Source of the DNA: Cryobacterium arcticum
Lineage (GTDB): Bacteria; Actinomycetota; Actinomycetes; Actinomycetales; Microbacteriaceae
DNA: 64,000 bases
Assembly: GCF_001679725.1 (NCBI RefSeq)
Contig: NZ_CP016282.1
Coordinates: 186,001-250,000, forward strand
Direction of reading: 5' to 3'
Position numbers and translations under genes: made by a program. The number at the start of each line of letters is the position of its first letter. Position 1 is the stretch's first letter. Below the pieces are notes generated by a model, which ran no database searches, was not told the origin of the DNA, and saw nothing but the letters and a program-made list of their open reading frames with translations. Shown here piece by piece: positions 47,422-64,000 of the stretch.

Positions 47422-48876
47422 CTAGCTTTCGCTAGCCTGCCCGGCACTCAGCCCCATTCGGCGACGCAGCCCAGCGAGCGCGAGGAGCAGCAGCGAGCCC
47501 AGCATCACCGGGATCAGGGCGATGGCCGCGAGGAACGCCGGGTTGGCCCCGGTGCTGGCCAGGGCGGCGGGCAGGAGACCGGCGGTTGTCGAGGTCGACA
47601 GTGCGCCCTGTGTGACGGATGTGGTCGGGGACACGCCCGCGGGGATCACGGTGTCCCGCGGGCCGGTGGGGCTAACCGGTCTGACCGGCGTTACCGGCGT
47701 CACGGGGGTGACCGGGGTGACCGGCGTTACGGGGTTGACCGGCGTCACCGGCGTCACCGGCGTCACCGGGGTGACCGGGGTGACCGGGGCGCCGGGAACC
47801 GTGGTGGTGGAGCCCGTCGTGGTGCTGTCGCCGATCACCGAGACCGCATTGCCGCCCACCGTGACGGGGATCAGCAGGTCGAGAAGCGCCTGGGTGCCGC
47901 CGAGGATGCTGTCGCTTCCGTCGGTGTTAGCGGCTTCCGGTCCTGCCGTCGTGGAGCCGACGGGGGCCGTAGTGGTGTCCGTGCTGGTCGAGTCTCCGAC
48001 TACGGAGATGGCGTTTCCACTGACGGTGACCGGGGCGACGGCGTCGAGAACCGCCTGGGTGCCGCCGAGGATGCTGTCGCTTCCGTCAGTGTTAGCGGCG
48101 TCGGGGCCCGCGGTCGTTGACTCGGAGGGAACGGTGGTGGTGGCATCCGTGGTGGTGGAGTCTCCGAGGACGGAGATGGCGTTGCCGCTGACGGTGACCG
48201 GGGCGACGGCGTCGATGACGGCTTGGGTGCCGCCGAGGGCGGTGTCCTCTCCGTCAGTGGTCGGGGCGGCAGCCGGTGCCGTTGCCGCTGGGTCGGCCGG
48301 GGCCGTGGTTGTGGTGTCCGTGCTGGTCGAGTCTCCGACGACGGAGATGGCGTTTCCGCTGACGGTGACCGGGGCGACGGCGTCGATGACGGCCTGGGTG
48401 CCGCTGAGGATGCTGTCGCTTCCGTCGGTGCTTACGGCCTCAGGTCCTGCCGACGTGGACTCGGCCGGGGCCGGGGCCGGGGCGGTGGTGGCATCCGTGC
48501 TGGTCGAATCTCCGATTACCGAGATCGAATTGCCGCTGACGGTGATTGGCGCAGCGGCGTCGACGACAGCTTGGGTGCCGCCGAGAACGCTGTTGTCTCC
48601 GTCGGTGGTCGAAGCGGCGGGCGATGCTGATGCTGGCGGGTCGCTCGGTGCGGTTGTGGTGGCATCCGTGCTGGTCGAGTCTCCGATGATGGAGATCGCA
48701 TTGCCGGACACGGTGACGGGTAGGACGGTGTCGATCACCGCCTGGGTGCCCGACAAGATTCCGTCGGTACCGGATGTTTCGGGTGCTTCTGCGGCATTGG
48801 CAACACCGGCGCCGATGGCCGAGAGGCCGCCGACGAGGAGGGCGCAGTACAGGCCCTTTTTGACGAACGAGAACAT
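47422..48876 (-). CDS. Secreted repeat protein with chaplin-like repeats and LASTG sorting signal
   Basis: A 484-residue cell-surface protein. Residues 1-28 are a signal peptide ending VANA. Six repeats of about 55-60 residues follow, each with [20 protein letters not shown] then [12 protein letters not shown]. The [14 protein letters not shown] core resembles the beta-forming half of chaplins (VNVCGNSVNVIG), with Ser in place of Cys. A Pro-Val-Thr run follows, then LASTG, a hydrophobic segment and RRR: a class E (LAxTG) sortase anchor. AAGGAG lies about 7 bp before the ATG. Probably a wall-anchored, amyloid-like or adhesive surface protein; function inferred. Confidence 0.78.
47681..47790. 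repeat. 9-bp minisatellite inside the surface-protein gene
   Basis: A run of GTCACCGGC/GTGACCGGG-type 9-mers, about twelve copies with small variations, encodes the Pro-Val-Thr linker before the LASTG anchor. Length change in steps of 9 bp would keep the frame and alter the distance of the chaplin-like repeats from the wall. Confidence 0.8.
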
Positions 48877-53707: not shown

Positions 53708-54154
53708 TCAGGCGGGCTGGTCCGGTCCCAGCCGCAGCCGGTCGCAGAGGGCCGTGAGCTGCACGAGTTCGTCGGCGCTCAGGCTGTCGCCCACGCGGGT
53801 CGTGATCGAGCCCATGTGATCGAGCGCCACCCGGCGGAACAGCGCGTAGCCGGCCTCGGTGAGCTCGACGATGGCGCCCCGGCCGTCGTCGGGGTCCGGA
53901 TGCTTGGCGACGTATCCGCGGGACGCCAGGCGGTCCACGAGCCGGCTCACGCTCGGCTGAGTGAGCAGCACGTGCTTGTTCAGGTCGCGCAGACGGATGC
54001 TGCGGTCCTCCTGCCGGGACAGGTTGAACATCACGTCGTACTCGTTGAAGGAGATTTCCCGTGACGGGAACTCCTCGGCCAGGCTGCGCATAATGGCGAC
54101 CTGGGCGCGGAACAACGACTCCCAGGCGGCAACTGCCACCGCTCGATCGACCAT
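53708..54154 (-). CDS. MarR-family transcriptional regulator
   Basis: A 148-residue winged-helix protein. ISFNEYDVMFNLSRQEDRSI leads into the helix-turn-helix RLRDLNKHVLLTQPSVSRLV and the wing RGYVAKHPDPDDGRGAIVEL with the conserved D-x-D-x-R wing tip. The N-terminal helix VAAWESLFRAQVAIMRSLAE and the C-terminal helix make the dimer. No efflux gene is adjacent; the target is unknown. Confidence 0.9.
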   Translation of the reverse strand: MVDRAVAVAAWESLFRAQVAIMRSLAEEFPSREISFNEYDVMFNLSRQEDRSIRLRDLNKHVLLTQPSVSRLVDRLASRGYVAKHPDPDDGRGAIVELTEAGYALFRRVALDHMGSITTRVGDSLSADELVQLTALCDRLRLGPDQPA

Positions 54155-54266
54155 GCTGCCTCCTCACCGCCCCCAGGGCATCTCTTGGTCAAGAGTATGG
54201 GACTCGTGGAGCATCCCGCGGCAGCCTAGCCCGATCGCCGCGCTTCGAGGTGGATCAAGCGCACTC

Positions 54267-54848
54267 CTAGGCGTCCCTCACGGCGATGCCCGGGTAGGCC
54301 AGGATCAGGCCGGCGGTGTCGAACGTGAGCTCGCAGGTGACGTCGAACGAGCGCGACTCGTAGTGGAAGCTCAACCCGCGCGGCGAGAGCGCCGTGAGGG
54401 TGTACTCCTGCTCCAAGCGGACGATGCTGAGATCGTTCGCCCGGACGAAGGCCGCGGGTACTCGCACGGGTTCCCCGGCCACGAACTCGAGCCGGTGCAG
54501 GGGGAGGGTGTTGGTGACGCAGGAGGACTCGAAGTCGACGTCCACGCATCCGGTGAGGTCGGCTCGCGGTATCCCGTCGACCTCCCAACCCCGGTCGGCG
54601 GAGCGCCGCAACACCGTGTGCCGCTCGCCGTCCACGGTGGAGGCGGCGGCCCGCACCTCCTGAGTGCGCCAGACGGGGTCGAGATCGATCGAGTAGTCCA
54701 CCGACCAGGCGGATGCGTCCTCCACGGCCGTGGAGACGCCCCGCAGCCGGTGGCCCCGCGGACCACTGTCGGTGAAGAGCACCTCGAAGCCCTGCCGGAC
54801 GCCGGAATGACGCCAACTCGCCTGTCGGGGCAGAGTCTTCAGGTGCAT
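54267..54848 (-). CDS. Putative glycolipid-binding protein (PF06475 type)
   Basis: A 193-residue soluble protein. SWRHSGVRQGFEVLFTDSGP, WSVDYSIDLDPVWRTQEVRA, LTGCVDVDFESSCVTNTLPL and YESRSFDVTCELTFDTAGLI match the putative glycolipid-binding family (PF06475), whose members are lipocalin-like barrels. The biological role is unknown, and the family name rests on similarity to a mycobacterial protein. The gene is single; an AT-rich dyad at 54948-54968 lies about 100 bp upstream. Confidence 0.78.
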   Translation of the reverse strand: MHLKTLPRQASWRHSGVRQGFEVLFTDSGPRGHRLRGVSTAVEDASAWSVDYSIDLDPVWRTQEVRAAASTVDGERHTVLRRSADRGWEVDGIPRADLTGCVDVDFESSCVTNTLPLHRLEFVAGEPVRVPAAFVRANDLSIVRLEQEYTLTALSPRGLSFHYESRSFDVTCELTFDTAGLILAYPGIAVRDA

Positions 54849-55538
54849 GCCATGACCCTAGGCCGACGCCTGGACTTCGTCACGCCTTGGCCGGCAATAG
54901 CGTCGTCCAAGGGAACACTGGGTGAACTCGCAGGAAAATAACGATCCGATAACTGGCGCTCCGTTATCCGTTCGTTATATATTCGTAGTGCATCAACCGT
55001 TTGCTGTGGCGGAAGATGCGAATGTGATTGCAGGACACTCTTGGTGCAAGGGAAGAGGGTCGGTCGTTTGCCTCTACGACCGGCCCTCAATCACGTTAAC
55101 GGGCAGTAGCCGCCGCGCCGCGCTACGCGGCGTCGCCGCTCGAGCCCGTCGAGACCTCGTGAGGTGCGCAGGGTCGGCCCACACGTCGGTCGAGCCCGTC
55201 GAGACCTGGCGACGTGCGCGAGGTCGTGCCCCCACGTCGGTCGAGCTTGTCGAGACCTGGCGACGTGCGCGAGGTCGTGCCCCCACGTCGGTCGAGCTTG
55301 TCGAGACCTGGTGAGGTGCGCGAGGTCGTGCCCCCACGTCGGTCGAGCTTGTCGAGACCTGGTGAGGTGCTCTGAGTCGTAGGGACATCGATGGGCGCAC
55401 TGTCGAGATCGTCTTGCGGGGTTTCGACAGGCTCGACCGCCGGACCGGGGCTTTGACGGGGCCGTCTCGCGGGGTCTCGACAGGCTCGACCAGCGCATGC
55501 GCGCGTGGTCGAGGTCGCCCAGCTGGGCGGGGCGCTAC
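54849..55538. other. 690-bp non-coding interval with AT-rich dyad and repeats
   Basis: No convincing gene. The first 150 bp contain an AT-rich patch with GATAAC (54948-54953) and GTTATC (54963-54968) as inverted arms plus TATATATT-like sequence, perhaps an operator/promoter. From about 55130 a 51-bp tandem array follows, and at 55420-55500 two stretches of TTTCGACAGGCTCGACC and TCTCGACAGGCTCGACC. Reading frames in the array give only VELVETW-type repeats and are not genes. Confidence 0.7.
55130..55375. repeat. 51-bp tandem repeat array, about five units
   Basis: The block CACGTCGGTCGAGCTTGTCG with AGACCTGG recurs with the GAGACC core at 55201, 55252, 55303 and 55354, exactly 51 bp apart; a diverged unit precedes at 55151. 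Each unit carries GGTCGAGCTTGTCGAGACC, the same 19-mer as the right arm of the proC-trk array at 60.6-61.4 kb. Confidence 0.88.
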
Positions 55539-56249
55539 CTAGAAGCGGTCGGGGCTGGGCGTGCTGGCCTGGCGGATCGACACATCCGCGTGGCGGTCGA
55601 AGCGGTAGCCCACGCCGCGCACGGTGCGCACGATGTCTTCGTAGCGGCCGAGCTTGGAGCGCAGGCGGCGCACGTGCACGTCGATGGTGCGCTCGTTCGG
55701 GGCATCCTCTTCGCTCTCGGCGTCCCAGAGCTTGGAGATCAACTCGGCGCGCTCGATGGTGCGGCCTTCGCGCAGCACCAGGTACTGCAGCAGCTCGAAC
55801 TCCTTGTAGGTGAGCGCCGCGGTCTCGTTGTCGAGGATCACGCGCTTGCGGGAGATGTCGACGACGACGCCGCCGGGCGCGCGGTCGGCATCCTCGGCAG
55901 TGTTGCGGTGCTTAGCCAGGGCGGCCGGGTCCTGCAGGGCCAGGCGCACGACGTCCACATCGCGGCCACCGACGCCCTCCGGTGCCAGGGCGACAGCGGC
56001 GTGGGTCTCGGCCGAGGGGGCGATGGCCTGGGTGAGCTTCTTCAGCTCCTCGACGATGCGGTGCAGGCTTGTACCGGCCGCGGCCGCCTTGGCCTCGTCG
56101 ATGCCCACGTAGAGCACGAAGCCGCGAGCCTGGGTGCCCTCCGGCACAGCGCGGATGCGCGGCGCGGCCGGAGCCGGCGCGGGGGCCAGGGTGAGCTCGG
56201 GGCGGAAGGACTGGACGGAACGGGCGGTGTCGATGTGTGCGAGTGACAT
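55539..56249 (-). CDS. Winged-helix (OmpR/PhoB-type) DNA-binding protein without receiver domain
   Basis: A 236-residue regulator. The N-terminal 130 residues are Ala/Pro-rich then a small alpha/beta region (RGFVLYVGIDEAKAAAAGTS, LHRIVEELKKLTQAIAPSAE) lacking the phospho-acceptor Asp pattern. Residues about 130-220 are an OmpR-type domain: VVVDISRKRVILDNETAALT, YKEFELLQYLVLREGRTIER, then NERTIDVHVRRLRSKLG and TVRGVGYRFDRH. It probably acts as a phosphorylation-independent regulator; the target is unknown. A long untranslated region precedes it. Confidence 0.87.
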   Translation of the reverse strand: MSLAHIDTARSVQSFRPELTLAPAPAPAAPRIRAVPEGTQARGFVLYVGIDEAKAAAAGTSLHRIVEELKKLTQAIAPSAETHAAVALAPEGVGGRDVDVVRLALQDPAALAKHRNTAEDADRAPGGVVVDISRKRVILDNETAALTYKEFELLQYLVLREGRTIERAELISKLWDAESEEDAPNERTIDVHVRRLRSKLGRYEDIVRTVRGVGYRFDRHADVSIRQASTPSPDRF

Positions 56250-56771
56250 TGGAGAAATCCTTGAGGTGTGATGATGCGCAAAACCCGGCGCGTCAGCGCT
56301 CGTGGGTTCGAAAAAGATCGGCCGGAGTGGCCGGGCGGCCCCTGTGAGGAGAGCCCTGGAGTCGGTCCGCCGTGAATCTGGCGGCCTCAGCGGCTGTGGG
56401 ACAGCGGGTGAGGGCTGATCGACTCGGCGCTATTGCCTGTCTGGGTTAGCGGCACATTCGGCAACACGCCATCACGCTGCTGCCGGGCATCATCATGCCG
56501 GCAGTCCCCAAAGCCTCGAAGGAGGTCGGGATGCGTGTGGTGGAAGTCATGACTGTGAGTAAAGCCGACTGTGACGAGTTGTGTCAATTCAGTTACGCGG
56601 AATCTCGCCCGTGCGGCTGCATCACGTTCACGGGGAATCTGCGAAATCGGAGGATCTCGCACAAAGGGCCGCTTTCTCAAAGAAAGCGGCCCTCAAATGA
56701 AGTTTTTCAAAGTTTTGTGAATCTAACTGCGGTCGGCGCGTCGCCCGTCGCAGGATCTGCGGAGTGCTGGG
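56250..56771. other. 520-bp intergenic region between the winged-helix gene and upp
   Basis: No supported gene. It holds an imperfect dyad CTGCCGGGCAT/ATGCCGGCAG around 56479-56504 and a strong hairpin at 56666-56692. The part next to the winged-helix start is a long 5' leader or promoter region. A small open frame starting at 56495 on the plus strand has no coding features. I see no recognisable riboswitch. Confidence 0.6.
56666..56692. terminator. Stem-loop downstream of upp
   Basis: GGGCCGCTTTCT (56666-56677) pairs exactly with AGAAAGCGGCCC (56681-56692) around a 3-base loop CAA. It lies about 80 bp past the upp stop, with A-rich sequence on the upp side and weak T-rich sequence beyond, so it probably terminates upp transcription on the minus strand. 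Confidence 0.75.
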
Positions 56772-57404
56772 TCAGACCAGGCCGTAGAGGCGGTCACCGG
56801 CGTCGCCGAGGCCGGGAACGATGTAGCCGTGCTCGTCGAGGCGTTCGTCCACCGCGCCGAGCACGATGGTGACCTCGCGGCCCGCCAGCGCCTTCTCGAC
56901 GGCGGCGAGGCCCTCAGGGGCGGCGAGGATGCAGATGGCCGTGACGTCGACGGCGCCGCGGTCGAAGAGGAACTCGATCGCTGCGATCAAGGAGCCGCCG
57001 GTGGCCAGCATCGGGTCGAGCACGAAACACTGGCGGTCGGAGAGGTCGTCGGGCAGACGCTCGGCGTAGGTGGTGGGCTGCAGGGTCTCTTCATTGCGGG
57101 CCATGCCCAGGAATCCGACCTCGGCAGTGGGGAGCAGCTTGACCATGCCCTCGAGCATGCCGAGCCCGGCGCGCAAGATCGGAACAACCAGGGGCTTGGG
57201 GTCGCTGATCTTCACACCGCGGGCGAGCGACACGGGCGTCTGCACGGTCACCTCGTCCACGCGAACGCCCCGGGTGCCCTCGTACGCGAGCAGGGTCATC
57301 AGCTCTTCCACCAGCGCGCGGAACATCGGCGACGAGGTGCTCTGGTCACGCAACACCGTGAGCTTGTGGGTGATGAGCGGATGGTCGGCTACGTGGACTC
57401 GCAT
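56772..57404 (-). CDS. upp: Uracil phosphoribosyltransferase
   Basis: A 210-residue salvage enzyme making UMP from uracil and [24 protein letters not shown] is the family N-terminus, [20 protein letters not shown] the substrate loop, [20 protein letters not shown] the PRPP-binding motif, and [20 protein letters not shown] with DRLYGLV the uracil-binding C-terminus. Length is standard. It is divergent from tadA with 62 bp between the starts. Confidence 0.95.
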
Positions 57405-57466
57405 AGGCTCAATCTACTAGTTCACGCGGGTCCGCGGCTCTAGTCGGGCGCCCGGGAAGAGGTGAT

Positions 57467-57976
57467 GTGGTGCGGCACAGCGACGAACACGAAGCGTGGA
57501 TGCGCCTGGCCCTCCACGAGGCACAGGACGCCCTGGTCGGCGGCGACGTTCCGGTCGGCGCGGTGGTGCTGGATCCGGCCGGCCGGGTGATCGGCCGCGG
57601 GCGCAACGAGCGGGAGCTGCACCAGGATCCCACCCTGCACGCCGAGGTGGTGGCCATCCGCGAGGCTGCCGCTGCGCTGGGGGACTGGCACCTCACCGAC
57701 TGCACCCTGGTGGTGACCCTGGAGCCCTGTGTGATGTGCGCGGGCGCGATCGTGGCGGCCCGGGTGGCCCGGGTGGTTTTCGGCGCGTGGGACGAGAAGG
57801 CCGGCGCCGCCGGGTCGCTCTACGACGTGCTGCGCGACCGCCGGCTCAACCACCGGGTCGAAGTGGTGTCCGGGGTGGCCGAGGTTGAGTGCGGACGAGT
57901 GCTCAGGGAGTTCTTCGAGGATCCGCTGCGCCGCCCGGCTGCGCCCCGCCCGGCAACGCCGCCAGCCACTCACTGA
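57467..57976 (+). CDS. tadA: tRNA-specific adenosine deaminase
   Basis: A 169-residue zinc deaminase that converts A34 of tRNA-Arg(ACG) to inosine; the matching tRNA gene is at 51665. Motifs are DVPVGAVVLDPAGRVIGRGR, the HAE site DPTLHAEVVAIREAA and TLEPCVMCAGAIVAARV (PCxxC), with DEKAGAAGSLYDVL and LNHRVEVVSGV as the TadA-specific RNA-contact region. The C-terminus is a Pro/Ala-rich extension whose coding sequence overlaps the convergent amidotransferase gene by 74 bp. Confidence 0.93.
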   Translation: MVRHSDEHEAWMRLALHEAQDALVGGDVPVGAVVLDPAGRVIGRGRNERELHQDPTLHAEVVAIREAAAALGDWHLTDCTLVVTLEPCVMCAGAIVAARVARVVFGAWDEKAGAAGSLYDVLRDRRLNHRVEVVSGVAEVECGRVLREFFEDPLRRPAAPRPATPPATH

Positions 57977-58652
57977 ACAGGGCCCGGGATGCCGCCTGCA
58001 TCGCGTCGGAGTGCTCGGCGCGGTCCCGCCGCAGTGTGTCGGCGTCCAGCCCCTCCGCGTCGAGCTCCACGGTGGAGGAGGCCAGCCAGGTCTCGTGCAT
58101 CTCGGCGGTCAGCTCGGGGTGGAACTGCACCGCCAGCGCCCAGTCCTCAATAGCGAAGGCCTCGTTGCCGTACGCATCCGACCCGGCCAGCCGGGTGGTG
58201 CCCTCGGGCAGGTCGAAGGTGTCGCTGTGCCACTGCATCACCGGGATGCCGCTGACATACCGCAGGGGCGAGTCGAGGCCGGCCTCGGTGGGCTGCACCA
58301 GGCGGAAACCGATCTCGTTGCTCGGACCCCGGTAGACGGGGGAGCCGAGGGCGCTGGCCATCAGCTGGGCCCCCAGGCACACGCCGAAGATCGGGCGCCG
58401 GGCGGCCAGTCGGCCGGCGAGCAGGCCCACCTCGTCGGCCAGCACCGGGAACTGGTCGGTCTGGTAGACGCCCATCTCGCCGCCGAGCACCACGAGAAGG
58501 TCGGCCTCGGCCGGGTCGATCTGCCGAACGCCGTCGGTGAGGGTGTCGACGTAGCGCACGCTGTAGCCGTGCTCGATCAGCACCGGCTCCAGGTTGCCCA
58601 GGTGGATGTCGTCGGCGTGCCGCAGGACCAGGGCGACGGGGCCCGCGCTCAT
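57903..58652 (-). CDS. Class I glutamine amidotransferase-like protein
   Basis: A 249-residue protein of the GuaA-amidotransferase-like group. The nucleophile elbow is PIFGVCLGAQLMASALGSPV with the catalytic Cys, the His is in ALAVQFHPELTAEMHETWL, and VVLGGEMGVYQTDQFPVLAD provides the oxyanion turn. Stand-alone members include gamma-glutamyl-polyamine hydrolase-like enzymes and putative GMP synthase homologues; the substrate is unknown. It overlaps the upstream cation-efflux gene by 4 bp and, convergently, the last 74 bp of tadA. Confidence 0.88.
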   Translation of the reverse strand: MSAGPVALVLRHADDIHLGNLEPVLIEHGYSVRYVDTLTDGVRQIDPAEADLLVVLGGEMGVYQTDQFPVLADEVGLLAGRLAARRPIFGVCLGAQLMASALGSPVYRGPSNEIGFRLVQPTEAGLDSPLRYVSGIPVMQWHSDTFDLPEGTTRLAGSDAYGNEAFAIEDWALAVQFHPELTAEMHETWLASSTVELDAEGLDADTLRRDRAEHSDAMQAASRALFSEWLAALPGGAQPGGAADPRRTP

Positions 58653-59611
58653 TCGCGGCCCTTGATGACGATCGCGTCGGTGGGCGGATTCACCGTGGCC
58701 GGGTCGATATAGAGATCGGGTTCGAGGTAGATGACGCGGGCACTGGGCACGGCCTCCCGGATGCGCGCTTCGATGGTGTCGATCCCCGCGGCGACATCGG
58801 AGAACCGTTGCCCGGAGTCGAAGGAGAGCTTGGCGGCGACGAGCAGCTCGTCCGGGCCGAGGTAGAGCGTCTTGAGGTGGATGAGGTTCTTCGTCTCCGG
58901 GCCGGCCAGGATGGCGGACTTGATGGCGTCGACATCCTTGACGCTGGCGCCCTCGCCCACCAGCAGGCTTTTGGTCTCGATGCCCAGCACGATGGCCACC
59001 AGCACAAGCAGCACGCCGATGCCGAGGGTGCCGACGGCGTCCCAGGTGGCGTCGCCGGTGACCACGGTGAGGCCCACGCCGCCCAGCGCCAGCATCAGGC
59101 CGGTGAGGGCCGCGACGTCTTCGAGCAGCACGACGGGGAGTTCGGGGGCCTTGGCGTGCCGGATGAACTGCACCCAGCTCTCGTTCTTGCGGGTGTGGTT
59201 GGACTCCTTCACCGCGGTGCGCAGCGAGAACGACTCCAGGCCGATCGCCACGAGCAGCACCAGGATCGGCAACCAGGCGTTCTCGAGTTCGTGCGGGTTC
59301 TGCAGCTTCTCGATGCCTTCGTAGATCGAGAACACGCCGCCGACGGAGAACAGGATGATCGACACCACGAAGGCGTACACGTAACGTTCGCGGCCGTAAC
59401 CGAACGGATGCTCGGCGTCGGCCGCCTTCTTCGACTTGCGTCCGCCGATCAGCAGCAGGATCTGGTTGCCCGAGTCGGCGAGCGAGTGCACGCCCTCGGC
59501 CAGCATCGAGGACGACCCCGATACGAACCAGGCGATGAACTTGGTGATCGCGATGCCGAGGTTGGCGAGCAGTGCCGCCACAATCGCCTTGTTTCCGCCT
59601 GATGCGCTCAT
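58649..59611 (-). CDS. Cation diffusion facilitator (CDF) family transporter
   Basis: A 320-residue metal/proton antiporter with about six helices. AIVAALLANLGIAITKFIAW is helix 1, EGVHSLADSGNQILLLIGG carries the HxxxD-type site of helix 2, and DAEHPFGYGRERYVYAFVVS is the diagnostic loop. The cytoplasmic C-terminal domain includes VKDVDAIKSAILAGPETKNL and ARVIYLEPDLYI. Likely exports Zn, Fe, Mn or similar divalent ions. It is translationally coupled to the amidotransferase gene downstream and divergent from proC. Confidence 0.9.
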   Translation of the reverse strand: MSASGGNKAIVAALLANLGIAITKFIAWFVSGSSSMLAEGVHSLADSGNQILLLIGGRKSKKAADAEHPFGYGRERYVYAFVVSIILFSVGGVFSIYEGIEKLQNPHELENAWLPILVLLVAIGLESFSLRTAVKESNHTRKNESWVQFIRHAKAPELPVVLLEDVAALTGLMLALGGVGLTVVTGDATWDAVGTLGIGVLLVLVAIVLGIETKSLLVGEGASVKDVDAIKSAILAGPETKNLIHLKTLYLGPDELLVAAKLSFDSGQRFSDVAAGIDTIEARIREAVPSARVIYLEPDLYIDPATVNPPTDAIVIKGRE

Positions 59612-59681
59612 GCGACCAATCCTAGAACCGTCGCCCTGCCCCGAGAACCGCGGAAACCGTGCCGAAAACTACACTGGGGAG

Positions 59682-60530
59682 ATGACTTCGACCGCACCCG
59701 TCACCCTGCCCGCCATCGCCTTCCTGGGCGCCGGATCGATGGCCAGGGCGGTCTTAGCGGGCCTGCTCAAGCCCACGGTCACGGTGACCGGCGGCATCCG
59801 CACCACCAACCGGTCGGCCGCCAAGGCCGCCGAACTGGCCGGCACCACGGGTGTGACGGCCTGGGCCACCGAGACGGAGCCCGACGCCAACCGGCTCGCC
59901 GTGGCCGGCGCGGGCATCGTGATCGTGGCGGTCAAGCCCGCCATGGTGCCCGACCTGCTCGCCGAGATCGCCGACAGCCTTGAGCCGGGCACCCTTGTCG
60001 TGAGCGTCGCGGCTGGCGTGACCATCGCCACCTTCGAGAAGCACCTGCCCGCGACGGTGGCCGTGATCCGGTCGATGCCGAACACGCCAGCCGTGGTGGG
60101 CATGGCTGTTACCGGGCTGAGCGCCGGCACCCGGTCCACGGCCGAGCAGATGGCGCTGGCGACGGCGTTGTTCGAAACCGTGGGGGAGGTACTGGTGGTG
60201 TCCGAAGACAAGATCGACGCGCTGAGCACCATTTCCGGGTCCGGTCCGGCGTATGTCTTCTACCTCATCGAGCAGCTCACCCTGACGGCCATCGACAAGG
60301 GGTTCACGCCAGCCGAGGCAGCCACCATGGTCAACGGCACGTTCCTCGGCGCGAGCGCGCTGCTGGCCGTCTCCGACCTCACGCCCACCGAGCTGCGCCG
60401 CCAGGTGACGAGCCCCAAAGGCACCACCGAGCGGGCCGTGCAGCAGCTCGAGACCGGGGGGCTCAAGGAGCTGTTCGACCGGGCCACGGATGCCGCGCTG
60501 GCGCGGGCCCGGGAGCTCGCCGCGTCCTAA
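59682..60530 (+). CDS. proC: Pyrroline-5-carboxylate reductase
   Basis: A 282-residue enzyme for the last step of proline synthesis. AIAFLGAGSMARAVLAGLLK binds NAD(P)H; VIVAVKPAMVPDLLAEIADS, VIRSMPNTPAVVGMAVTGLS and the signature STISGSGPAYVFYLIEQLTL follow, with TSPKGTTERAVQQLETGG closing the active site. The ATG at 59682 matches the family length. It is directly followed by the 1-kb repeat array, which separates it from the convergent potassium-uptake genes. Confidence 0.94.
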   Translation: MTSTAPVTLPAIAFLGAGSMARAVLAGLLKPTVTVTGGIRTTNRSAAKAAELAGTTGVTAWATETEPDANRLAVAGAGIVIVAVKPAMVPDLLAEIADSLEPGTLVVSVAAGVTIATFEKHLPATVAVIRSMPNTPAVVGMAVTGLSAGTRSTAEQMALATALFETVGEVLVVSEDKIDALSTISGSGPAYVFYLIEQLTLTAIDKGFTPAEAATMVNGTFLGASALLAVSDLTPTELRRQVTSPKGTTERAVQQLETGGLKELFDRATDAALARARELAAS

Positions 60531-61544
60531 GCGCCGCCTCCCCAGGTTTCGACAAGCTCAACCAGCGTGTGGTCGCGACCATTTCATGGGTCGCGACCAG
60601 TACGTCGGTCGAGCTTGTCGAGACCTCGTGGGCCGGTCTCTGAGCGCACGTCACCAGGTTTCGACAAGCTCAACCACCGTGTGGTCGCGACCAGTACGTC
60701 GGTCGAGCTTGTCGAGACCCCGTGGGCCGGCCTCTGAACGCACGTCACCGGGTTTCGACAAGCTCAACCACCGTGTGGTCGCGACGGCTTTATGGGTCGC
60801 GACCAGTACGTCGGTCGAGCTTGTCGAGACCTCGTGGGCCGGCCTCTGAACGCTCGTCACTGGGTTTCGGCAGGCTCAACCAGCGTGTGGTCGCGCCCGT
60901 TTCATGGGTCGCGACCAGTACGTCGGTCGAGCTTGTCGAGACCTCGTGGGCCGGCCTCTGAACGCACGTCACCGGGTTTCGACAAGCTCAACCACCGTGT
61001 GGTCGCGACGGCTTTATGAGTCGCGACCAGTACGTCGGTCGAGCTTGTCGAGACCTCGTGGCCCGGCCTCTGAATGCTCGTCACTGGGTTTCGACAGGCT
61101 CAACCACCGTGTGGTCGCGACCAGTACGTCGGTCGAGCTTGTCGAGACCTCGTGGGCCGGCCTCTGAACGCACGTCACCGGGTTTCGACAAGCTCAACCG
61201 GCGTGTGGTCGCGACCAGTACGTCGGTCGAGCTTGTCGAGACCTCGTGGGCCGGCTTCTGAACGCACGTCACCGGGTTTCGACAAGCTCAACCACCGTGT
61301 GGTCGCGACCAGTACGTCGGTCGAGCTTGTCGAGACCTCGTGGGCCGGCCTCTGAACGCTCGTCACTGGGTTTCGACAAGCTCAACCACCGTGTGGTCGC
61401 GACGGCTTTATGGGTCGCGACCAGTACGTCGGTCGAGCTTGTCGAGACCTCGTGGGCCGGCCTCTGAACGCACGTCACCGGGTTTCGACAAGCTCAACCG
61501 GCGTGTGGTTGCGCCGGGTTTCGACAGGCTCAACCGGCGCGTGG
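60531..61544. repeat. 1-kb hairpin repeat array, nine units of 94 or 112 bp
   Basis: No gene. Each unit has a left arm GGTTTCGACAAGCTCAACC, then GTGTGGTCGCGACC, GTCGGTCGAGCTTGTCGAGACC-type right arm (GGTCGAGCTTGTCGAGACC) and a joining segment with GTGGGCCGGCCTCTGAACGC. Left and right arms are nearly complementary. Right arms start at about 60607, 60701, 60813, 60925, 61037, 61131, 61225, 61319 and 61431: spacing 94, 112, 112, 112, 94, 94, 94, 112. The two lengths differ by an 18-bp insert (GGCTTTATG plus GGTCGCGAC). Two extra left arms end the array near 61480 and 61517. The convergent genes on both sides make this a 3'-3' region. Confidence 0.92.
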
Positions 61545-62216
61545 TTAGGAGCCGAGGGCCGCGAAACGCTCGATGTCGCCCTCGGTGCCGGCGACGATGA
61601 TGAGGTCGTGATTGGACACGACGGTCTCGGCAGTGGCGTAGGTGAACGGCCGGCCGGGGCTCTTCACGCCCACGACCGTGACCTTGTGCTTGGTGCGCAC
61701 GCCGGACTCGGTGAGGTTGAGCCCGCGGATCGGCTTGGGCGGGTACATCTTCACGAGCGCGAAGTCATCATCGAATTCGATGAAGTCCAGCATCCGCCCC
61801 GACACCAGGTGCGCGACGCGCTCGCCGGAGTCGGCCTCGGGGTAGATCACGTGGTTGGCGCCGATGCGCTCGAGGATCTTGCCGTGCGACTGGGAGATGG
61901 CCTTCGCCCAGATCTGCGGAATCTGCAGGTCGACGAGGTTAGCGACGATGAGCACGCTGGCCTCCACCGACGAGCCCACGGCGCACACGGCCACCGAGAA
62001 GTCCTGGGCGCCGATCTGGCGGAGCGCGTCGATGGACTTGGCGTCGGCCTGCACGGCGTGGGTGACCCGCTCGGACCACTTCTGCACGAGCGCCTCGCTG
62101 CTGTCCACGGCGAGGACCTCACGGCCCAGACGGTCGAGCTTGCCGGCAGTCGCGGCACCGAACCGACCCAGTCCAATGATCAGAACGGGGGCGTCGTGCT
62201 TGATCCGGTCAACCAA
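61545..62216 (-). CDS. Potassium uptake regulatory subunit (TrkA/KtrA type)
   Basis: A 223-residue soluble protein: an RCK-N domain (APVLIIGLGRFGAATAGKLD, the GxGxxG NAD/ATP turn, then VLAVDSSEALVQKW) and an RCK-C/TrkA-C domain from about residue 140 (GLNLTESGVRTKHKVTVVGV). One RCK unit, not two, indicates a KtrA/TrkA-half-type gating subunit forming an octamer with the membrane protein. It overlaps the upstream membrane subunit gene by 8 bp. Binds nucleotides or c-di-AMP in related systems; not visible here. Confidence 0.88.
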   Translation of the reverse strand: MVDRIKHDAPVLIIGLGRFGAATAGKLDRLGREVLAVDSSEALVQKWSERVTHAVQADAKSIDALRQIGAQDFSVAVCAVGSSVEASVLIVANLVDLQIPQIWAKAISQSHGKILERIGANHVIYPEADSGERVAHLVSGRMLDFIEFDDDFALVKMYPPKPIRGLNLTESGVRTKHKVTVVGVKSPGRPFTYATAETVVSNHDLIIVAGTEGDIERFAALGS

Positions 62217-63693
62217 CGATGGGCCTTTCCTCGGGGCGTTTGAACAACTGTCTGCTTTGGCTCGCTGCCAGCGCCGCCGCGAGAGTCACTGTACCAACCC
62301 GGCCCATGAACATCGTCGCGGCCAGAACGTAGACCCCCTCGGGTGGCAGCTCGGCGGTCAGCCCCGTCGACAGCCCCACGGTCGCGAACGCCGAGATCAC
62401 ATCAAAAAGCACGACGTCAAGCGCCTGCTTGGAGATGTGCAGGATCAGGATGCTCGACACGGCGACCGTGGTCGCGCCCCACAGCACCACGCTGACCGCC
62501 AGGCGCAGGATGTCGCTGGGGATGCGGCGGCCGAAGGCCTCCATCTGCTCCTTGCCCTGGGCCTCGGCGAAGGCGGCCAGGAACAGCACCGCGAGGGTGG
62601 TCACCTTGATGCCGCCGGCGGTGGAGGCCGAGCCGCCACCGATGAACATCAGCATGTCGCTGAGCAGCAGGCTGGAACCGTGCAGGTCGGCGATGTCGAT
62701 GGTGGCGAAACCGCCGGACCGGGTCATCACCGACATGAACATGGATTGGAAGATGGTGTCGCCGGCGTTCAAGGACCCAAAGGTCTTCGGGTTGTCGAAC
62801 TCCAGAATGATGTAGAAGATCATGCCGATGACCAGCAGCAGAACCGTAGTCCAAAGGGTGAGCTTCACGTGCACCGACCAGCGACGGGGTGTGCGCCAGT
62901 GCCTGGCGAAGGTCATCAGCACCGGGAAGCCCAGGCTGCCCAGGAACACGCCGGTCATCAGGGCGCCGAGGAACCAGTAGTCATTGGCGAACTGGCCGAT
63001 GCCCTCCGCATTCGGGCTGAACCCGGTGTTGGTGAAGGCCATCGCGGCGTAATAGATGCTCTGCCAGAGGGCCTCGCCGGTGGGCACGCCGTCGATCAGC
63101 ATCCGCGGGAACAAGAGCAGGGCGACGGCCGCCTCGATGGCCAGAGTGCTGATGGCCACCGTGAGCAGCAGGCTGCCGACCTCACCGAGCCGCACGGCCT
63201 GACCCTCATTGACCGGGCCCATGTGGATGCGCGACGGGTTCGAGTCGCTGGCCGCCATGAGCTTGGCGCGCAGGCCCAGGCGGCGGGAGATGACCAGGCC
63301 CATCAGGGATGCCAGGGTCAGCACCCCCATGCCGCCGATGTTGACGCCGACGACGACGAGAACGTTGCCGAATGCCGACCAGTGCGTGGCCATGTCCACC
63401 GTGCTCAGGCCGGTGACGCAAATCACCGACACGGCAGTGAACACGGCGTCGTGCAGCGGGGTTTCCGTGTCGCCAGCGGAGGCAATCGGCAAGGAGAACA
63501 GCAGGGTGAAGAGCAGGATCAGTGCGGTGAACACGAACAGCGCGAACCGGGACGGCGACTTGCGCACGATCCCATCGACAGAATCGCGGATGCGTCCGTA
63601 CCAGGTGTTGGAATGGCTGCTGAACCGGGCGTTAGGGGTTTGCGTCTTCACTCGAATCCCCGAACTGGATGGTGGTCGATGACAAGTTGTCAT
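62209..63693 (-). CDS. Potassium uptake membrane subunit (TrkH/KtrB type)
   Basis: A 494-residue (or shorter) channel-like protein with four M1-P-M2 repeats. Pore loops show the conserved Gly: VSVICVTGLSTVDM, MAFTNTGFSPNAEG, MTRSGGFATIDIAD and ISAFATVGLSTGLT. KSPSRFALFVFTALILLFTL is the first helix. The ATG at 63693 gives a 50-residue polar leader; the GTG at 63651 is a reasonable alternative. Partner of the RCK subunit downstream. Confidence 0.9.
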   Translation of the reverse strand: MTTCHRPPSSSGIRVKTQTPNARFSSHSNTWYGRIRDSVDGIVRKSPSRFALFVFTALILLFTLLFSLPIASAGDTETPLHDAVFTAVSVICVTGLSTVDMATHWSAFGNVLVVVGVNIGGMGVLTLASLMGLVISRRLGLRAKLMAASDSNPSRIHMGPVNEGQAVRLGEVGSLLLTVAISTLAIEAAVALLLFPRMLIDGVPTGEALWQSIYYAAMAFTNTGFSPNAEGIGQFANDYWFLGALMTGVFLGSLGFPVLMTFARHWRTPRRWSVHVKLTLWTTVLLLVIGMIFYIILEFDNPKTFGSLNAGDTIFQSMFMSVMTRSGGFATIDIADLHGSSLLLSDMLMFIGGGSASTAGGIKVTTLAVLFLAAFAEAQGKEQMEAFGRRIPSDILRLAVSVVLWGATTVAVSSILILHISKQALDVVLFDVISAFATVGLSTGLTAELPPEGVYVLAATMFMGRVGTVTLAAALAASQSRQLFKRPEERPIVG

Positions 63694-63726
63694 GGTACCC
63701 GCACCGGGAATGACTAGCCTTGGGGC

Positions 63727-64000
63727 ATGGCAGACATCTTTGGCGTGGTGGCGGACTCGACCCGACGCGATATCTTACGCATTCTCCTCGAGCGCTACAA
63801 CCAGTCCAGCGCTGCCCAGGGGGAACTGAGCGTTTCCGACATCGTCAATTCCCTCGGCCTGAGCCAGCCGACGGTCTCCAAGCACCTCAAGGTGCTGCGT
63901 GAGGCCGGCCTGGTCGGCGTGCGCGAAGAGGGGCAGCACCGCTACTACCACCTCGACTACGCGCCGCTCGAGGAGATCGAGGATTGGCTGATCCCGTTCC
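63727..64000 (+). CDS. ArsR-family winged-helix regulator (3' end outside window)
   Basis: 91 codons are visible. MADIFGVVADSTRRDILRIL opens an ArsR/HTH_5 fold, and VSDIVNSLGLSQPTVSKHLK is the recognition helix-turn-helix with VLREAGLVGVREEGQHRYYH as the wing. No metal-binding ELCVCD motif is present in the visible part, so a non-metal ArsR type is likely. It is divergent from the potassium genes, with 33 bp between the starts. The remainder lies beyond the right edge. Confidence 0.88.
   Translation, partial: MADIFGVVADSTRRDILRILLERYNQSSAAQGELSVSDIVNSLGLSQPTVSKHLKVLREAGLVGVREEGQHRYYHLDYAPLEEIEDWLIPF

Follow-up and report, generated by a model that had tools for sequence, protein, structure and literature searches.

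An array of repeats between proC and trkA

The 1014-bp gap separating the stop codons of the convergent genes proC and trkA in Cryobacterium arcticum (G000, the genome under study) is occupied by an array of inverted 19-bp repeats, at positions 60545-61535 of the stretch analysed here (the window, 64,000 nt, in whose own numbering such positions are given). This array is one among many belonging to a genome-wide family that resembles repetitive extragenic palindromes (REPs). It is very probably a cluster of the type known as bacterial interspersed mosaic elements (BIMEs) or REPINs (REP doublets forming hairpins), tandemly amplified in place by replication slippage or recombination.

The repeated core is a 19-bp imperfect palindrome, GGTYTCGACARGCTCRACC, present in 11 forward and 9 inverted copies. 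When the window was searched for GGTTTCGACAAGCTCAACC with up to three mismatches, we found 25 matches compared to 0.01 expected from shuffled windows, of which 20 make up the proC-trkA array and five belong to a second array at 55138-55491. The array of inverted repeats described in the initial annotation is thus real, while its parts are less uniform than described. Both 19-mers had been assigned to all nine units; the inverted core GGTCGAGCTTGTCGAGACC is indeed exact in 9 of 9 copies, and the forward core GGTTTCGACAAGCTCAACC in only 8 of 11. Likewise, the 12-bp palindrome TGGTCGCGACCA, said to lie between the cores of every unit, occurs exactly at 5 places for the nine units.

Read along the forward strand, each unit carries one forward and one inverted core. 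Unit 1 (112 bp, 60545-60656; cores 60545-60563 and 60607-60625) is predicted to form one long hairpin. It is followed by unit 2 (94 bp, 60657-60750; cores 60657-60675 and 60701-60719), unit 3 (112 bp, 60751-60862; cores 60751-60769 and 60813-60831), unit 4 (112 bp, 60863-60974; cores 60863-60881, with two changes, and 60925-60943) and unit 5 (112 bp, 60975-61086; cores 60975-60993 and 61037-61055). Three 94-bp units come next: unit 6 (61087-61180; cores 61087-61105, with one change, and 61131-61149), unit 7 (61181-61274; cores 61181-61199 and 61225-61243) and unit 8 (61275-61368; cores 61275-61293 and 61319-61337). Unit 9 (112 bp, 61369-61480; cores 61369-61387 and 61431-61449) closes the series, and two direct forward cores (61481-61499 and 61517-61535, together 61481-61535) complete the array. 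The distances between successive forward cores are therefore 112, 94, 112, 112, 112, 94, 94, 94, 112 and 36 bp, and the spacing is not strictly 94 or 112 bp, as had been claimed, because the final two copies lie 36 bp apart.

Alignment of the units confirmed that the two length classes differ by the gain or loss of 18 bp bounded by a 9-bp direct repeat, with the 94-bp class lacking the 18 bp located between two GGTCGCGAC repeats. Across all 36 pairwise comparisons, the nine whole units are 0.88 to 1.00 identical. The array is not a CRISPR (clustered regularly interspaced short palindromic repeats), as the initial annotation had also concluded, because its spacers repeat. An assembly artefact is unlikely, since the array has unique flanks, many further arrays exist in the genome, and the corresponding site in another species, Cryobacterium sp. 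N22, is occupied by a separate array built from these cores.

A genome-wide family with a covarying stem

The initial annotation had pointed to the genome and to related strains as the place to look for further copies, and the 15-bp core TCGACARGCTCRACC is found there in abundance. It occurs 549 times in C. arcticum (304 and 245 by strand), compared to a single match for the backwards control, and between 0 and 316 times in 36 Cryobacterium congeners. Counts fall to between 0 and 2 in 23 genomes of other genera in the order, with one exception at 33, and 199 Microbacteriaceae genomes mostly contain 0 to 5 cores, with sporadic highs such as 237, 102 and 95. These genus and family counts rest on exact 15-mers, and those from draft assemblies, which may collapse arrays, are probably too low. 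The looser pattern YTCGACARGCTCR, searched across 396 genomes of the phylum, gave 678 matches in C. arcticum and values near the control in most other rows of the table, which was read by eye; raised counts appeared in G348 (60, control 13), G041 (51, control 6), G403 (31, control 9) and G330 (26, control 2). Other arrays in C. arcticum use the same cores with different spacers and unit lengths. No Rfam family reached its gathering score in 54000-64000, and a plasmid or phage origin was set aside after blastn returned no match in plasmid and phage collections.

We characterized the core in 824 kb of the C. arcticum genome (19%), comprising the window, the following 400 kb and 18 scattered 20-kb stretches. 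This sample contains 173 exact copies of the loop TCGACARGCTC, flanked by four-base arms that are most often GGTC/GACC (115), followed by GGTT/AACC (28), GATC/GATC (9) and GGTT/GACC (1). At the innermost arm pair we counted 130 C-G, 34 T-A, 2 T-G and 1 C-A combinations (Fisher P 6e-32 over four cells, a value that overstates the covariation because the copies are related). The covarying stem is thus 4 bp long (GGTY/RACC) and flanks an 11-nt conserved stretch. Around the same loop, G041 and G348 have the arms GGT/ACC, GAT/ATC, GGC/GCC, CCC/GGG and TCC/GGA, and this variety points the same way as the stem covariation; the arms in G403 pair weakly (5, 6 and 5 of 10). One C. arcticum array, at 259418-259880 of the main contig (G000:C1), has cores with the arms TACT/AGCA around TCGACAGGCTC mixed in among the standard type.

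Read on the other strand, at least 186 of 191 cores have a tag starting with CG before the hairpin. The commonest tag is CGTC (60 of 191), and GTAG falls outside the 12 commonest tags, which account for 189 of 191 cores. The tails vary, such as TGGTGA and CCGCGA. Neighbouring cores lie in opposite orientation in 106 of 155 pairs, and the dimers they form are predicted to fold well: the first dimer (60539-60656) has a folding z of -7.95 as DNA, and a 94-bp unit (61269-61362) has a z of -4.0 as RNA. A rule by which a T-A arm pairs with a C-G arm in each dimer was considered, as copies gave 54 against 36, and was dropped when arrays were counted (5 heterodimeric, 10 C-G homodimeric and 5 other).

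Shared sites and differing copy numbers in relatives

The same gap was compared in related genomes. It measures 6 to 12 nt and contains no core in C. lactosi, G006, G022, the metagenome-assembled genome RYN_54 and G010, the last two being identical in reading. G030 has a single core there, as does G002 in inverted orientation, and G023 has two direct cores 36 bp apart, a layout that matches the pair at the end of the C. arcticum array. Cryobacterium sp. N22 has nine exact 15-bp cores with other spacers. The gap holds other, cupin-like DNA (named by eye) in C. zongtaii and G061, and an unrelated inverted repeat in C. shii, in two copies with TTCGACGGAGAT and ATCTCCGTCGAA ends. The flanks of G030 and G023 share 93 to 98% identity with those of C. 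arcticum at this site. In C. arcticum, one or two ancestral copies appear to have expanded into the array.

We extended the comparison to contig positions 186001-650000 (464 kb, 22 clusters), using G030 and G023, the two nearest complete relatives. Cluster 241138 fell outside it, as the relatives' stretches stop short of that cluster, and a flank was missing for 474041 and 524246 in G030 and for 498496 and 605946 in G023; sites 415280 (G030, 1454 bp) and 409190 and 579300 (G023, 856 and 3787 bp) were kept despite other DNA in the gap. Of 19 comparable sites in G030, 16 are occupied, with 37 copies compared to 110 in C. arcticum, which has more copies at 11 sites, equal numbers at 5 and fewer at 3. 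In G023, 15 of 19 comparable sites are occupied, with 21 copies compared to 116, and C. arcticum has more at 15 sites and equal numbers at 4. Over alignable sites, the relatives therefore have 3 to 5.5 times fewer copies. In the reverse direction, 17 of the 21 clusters in G030 could be placed in C. arcticum, 16 of them at occupied sites, as could 16 of the 17 in G023, 15 of them at occupied sites. Taken together, the two-way mapping indicates that sites are mostly shared while copy number differs.

Individual sites illustrate the difference. At 485517, G030 has one dimer bearing the same spacer as the 17-core array of C. arcticum, and a like trend is seen at 445870 in both relatives and at 259418 in G023. 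Within 404 kb of C. arcticum, 5261 bp consist of tandem repeats containing cores; the figures are 745 bp of 395 kb for G030 and 178 bp of 400 kb for G023. Tandem repeats that lack cores amount to 1497 bp in C. arcticum, 3732 bp in G030 and 358 bp in G023, and so do not indicate a general rise of repeats in C. arcticum.

Origin of the array and alternative explanations

We propose that a dimer exposed as a single strand, whether at the replication fork or within RNA, would fold into a long hairpin, and that such hairpins would stall synthesis. The repeated cores would then supply homology for slippage or unequal recombination, adding or removing blocks of units. The mixed order of 94- and 112-bp units, together with the 18-bp change between 9-bp repeats, fits either process. 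The array would be mainly a by-product with no dedicated function, presumably tolerated because it lies where two convergent genes meet at their 3′ ends, and it may put hairpins on the ends of the proC and trkA transcripts.

Several observations weigh against this account. Three G030 sites (498496, 586366 and 605946) exceed their C. arcticum counterparts in copies, and at 519983 the relatives have one core without its partner. Lone cores fold weakly (z of 0.53 and -0.31), and the 94-bp unit at 61269-61362 has a z of only -1.7 as DNA. The inverted partner and spacer of the proC-trkA array are absent at that site in G030 and G023, and growth from local material alone is therefore insufficient to produce it. 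A 20-bp piece of the spacer does occur elsewhere, at 3029025 (0 mismatches) and 3901927 (2 mismatches) in C. arcticum and at 3656339 in G006 (1 mismatch), where only matches with 0 to 2 mismatches were used, as those with 3 equal the level of the backwards control. These near-copies suggest that the inverted partner was copied in from another site. A copying step at the origin of the array, by gene conversion or transposition, is likely.

As an alternative, the dimers could be non-autonomous transposons that an unrecognised enzyme copies and stacks, either a HUH enzyme diverged beyond the Y1_Tnp profile (PF01797) or a DDE transposase for which the 19-bp cores serve as terminal inverted repeats. 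The hundreds of dispersed cores, the spacer copies in three other places and the gained partner at proC-trkA would fit such an enzyme, yet we consider it doubtful, as the majority of sites are common to relatives, no Y1_Tnp was found in the genomes with cores that were scanned, and no transposase was seen among the flanking genes scanned. Y1_Tnp was detected in 0 of 37 Cryobacterium genomes and in none of nine further genomes whose counts are raised, while the E. coli control was positive; in the set of 23 genomes of other genera it is present in G051 and G057, both with 0 cores. An association of the cores with REP-associated tyrosine transposases (RAYTs) was accordingly dropped, no RAYT being detected in the core-bearing genomes scanned. 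Among the genes flanking the sampled clusters, 40 of 56 were scanned against Pfam and 38 of these matched a family, for the most part in metabolism, regulation, transport or the cell wall; a transposase was absent from these 40, and one recombinase of the phage-integrase family was present. No target duplication was evident by eye at proC-trkA, and no genome-wide search for insertion sequences was run. In a separate region of about 15 kb (G000:C1, about 1364441-1380000), four core clusters of 8, 6, 4 and 8 copies occur, and three of them surround genes for an integrase-family recombinase, LtrA, a ParA-like ATPase and ScpA.

Selection for a function, under which arrays between convergent genes would stay long because they terminate or shield transcripts or because gyrase or some other protein binds them, seems improbable to us. 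Genes around the sampled clusters were called with a home-made codon-usage finder with rough starts. Out of 32 clusters, 12 lie in convergent and 13 in co-directional gaps, and none in a divergent one; a further 5 fall inside a predicted gene, 4 of these within 40 bp of its predicted start, and 2 are at an edge. Among the 25 intergenic clusters, both the lack of divergent contexts and the excess of convergent ones are significant, whether compared to shares of intergenic bases (0/25 divergent, P 0.0006; 12/25 convergent, P 0.0013) or to numbers of gaps (P 0.0018 and 0.0005, respectively). This excess and the strong RNA folding of the 94-bp unit fit selection, but promoter avoidance alone would yield the same gene context. 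Moreover, 0, 1 or 2 copies suffice at the same gap in the nearest relatives, and core counts vary across the whole congener range given above. The strong bidirectional terminator envisaged in the initial annotation gained no support, as no intrinsic terminator with a T-run was found in the array: a search of 60300-61800 gave one match, at 61664-61681 inside trkA, compared to 1.2 in shuffles, and none in 60531-61544.

A strain-specific repair defect, such as one affecting the cleavage of hairpins or the repair of mismatches, would let all hairpin arrays grow together and would explain why core-bearing arrays are longer at many sites within the same lineage. We regard it as very unlikely, because tandem repeats without cores have not risen alongside (1497 bp compared to 3732 bp in G030 and 358 bp in G023), and both SbcD and NucS score above cut-off in 40 of 41 Cryobacterium genomes. 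C. arcticum is among the positives for both profiles, and absence of either protein was rejected as a cause.

Relation to known REP systems

The family has the general characters of REPs, REPINs and BIMEs: a short imperfect palindrome in hundreds of copies, mostly outside genes, with inverted pairs that form long hairpins and alternate in arrays. The array resembles a BIME or REPIN cluster and falls outside both the GTAG class and, by its stem and tail, the CGTC class. For the GTAG class, which is mobilised by RAYTs, neither a GTAG-type tag among the commonest tags nor a RAYT was found.

Tandem REPIN clusters are described in Pseudomonas fluorescens SBW25, where the largest ordered one consists of four REPINs and one REP and each REPIN group is accompanied by a RAYT gene (PMC3116915); local amplification of REPINs by the host replication machinery is a published proposal (PMC8049555). 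The present array differs in having no RAYT found, nine dimers and two more cores, and other core letters. Enterobacterial BIMEs consist of regularly spaced REPs in alternating orientation, extragenic and in high copy (PMC2817692; PMC6006769). Our array shares the regular spacing, alternating orientation, location outside genes and high copy number, but has neither the GT[AG]G tag nor a TnpA-REP.

CGTC-tagged REPs, as described in PMC3733652, have no dedicated transposase, form inverted dimers and carry an unpaired tag at one end; their stems are 8-9 bp with AT in the first two positions, their loops 4-5 nt and their tails mostly CCA. Their clusters are rare there, and Actinobacteria is not among the five phyla listed. 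The Cryobacterium cores share with them the inverted dimers, a tag starting with CG and the lack of any transposase found. The tag of that class is CGTC, TGTC or CCTC; at least 186 of the 191 cores here have CG and then two bases that vary, and 60 have CGTC itself. The cores differ in their 4-bp GGTY/RACC stem, their 11-nt conserved stretch and the commonness of arrays, and they show neither the 8-9 bp stem with an AT start nor the CCA tail. The core letters were not found in the text of the literature (figures not covered), and literature searches returned nothing for Cryobacterium together with the REP phrase, or for the RAYT phrase together with Actinobacteria.

REP elements are usually explained by RAYT transposases, and here hundreds of copies occur with no RAYT found in the genus. 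Complete related genomes with 0 to 20 copies at the same sites provide a natural system for studying the growth of REP clusters in the absence of a transposase, and the constraints on cluster length.

A possible wider class of hairpin repeats

The conserved loop may define a third REP-like superfamily, in which YTCGACARGCTCR is carried on freely covarying arms with no RAYT, spread over several actinobacterial families and, to judge from viral contigs, beyond them, and bursting into arrays in place in some lineages via a hairpin-specific change. We advance this tentatively and would sooner doubt than assert it; its support comes from two genomes of Actinobacteria and from 93 sites in viral contigs. 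The pattern CTTCGACARGCTCAG occurs at these 93 sites in 80 of 120 viral-contig stretches, where complementarity at the next three positions of the arms is seen in 77, 63 and 44 cases, compared to 36, 32 and 29 expected from base composition. A rearranged control motif gave 19, 22, 10, 25, 22, 10 and 24 paired of 71 for arm positions 1 to 7, compared to 17 to 19 expected. Only the 120-stretch viral set was relied on, and covariation from 14-base patterns, which were mostly chance matches, was left unused. The hairpins of the viral contigs seem to represent a repeat that is widespread. That distant genomes show this pattern, in which the loop is conserved and the arms vary, hints at a broader class, for which we found no description in the literature searched. 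Among 124 viral-contig hairpins with three paired arm bases, 21 have CGAACG next.

Neighbouring features in the window

The array is flanked by proC (59682-60530, forward strand), encoding pyrroline-5-carboxylate reductase (P5CR_dimer, PF14748; start taken from the MTSTAPV reading), and by a trkA-like gene for a potassium uptake protein (61545-62216, reverse strand; TrkA_N, PF02254, and TrkA_C, PF02080). These Pfam families support both genes, whose convergent arrangement was correctly recognised in the initial annotation. The best named match of the TrkA protein is from C. lactosi, at 99%, in a protein search that perhaps omitted very near records and that assigns the window to Cryobacterium. 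The second array of the same core family (55138-55491) has 7 cores and a unit of about 51 bp, and sits between a gene encoding a glycolipid-binding protein and one encoding a transcriptional regulator. Farther upstream, 47675-48750 contains tandem repeats with periods of 27, 171 and 348 bp, possibly within a coding region.
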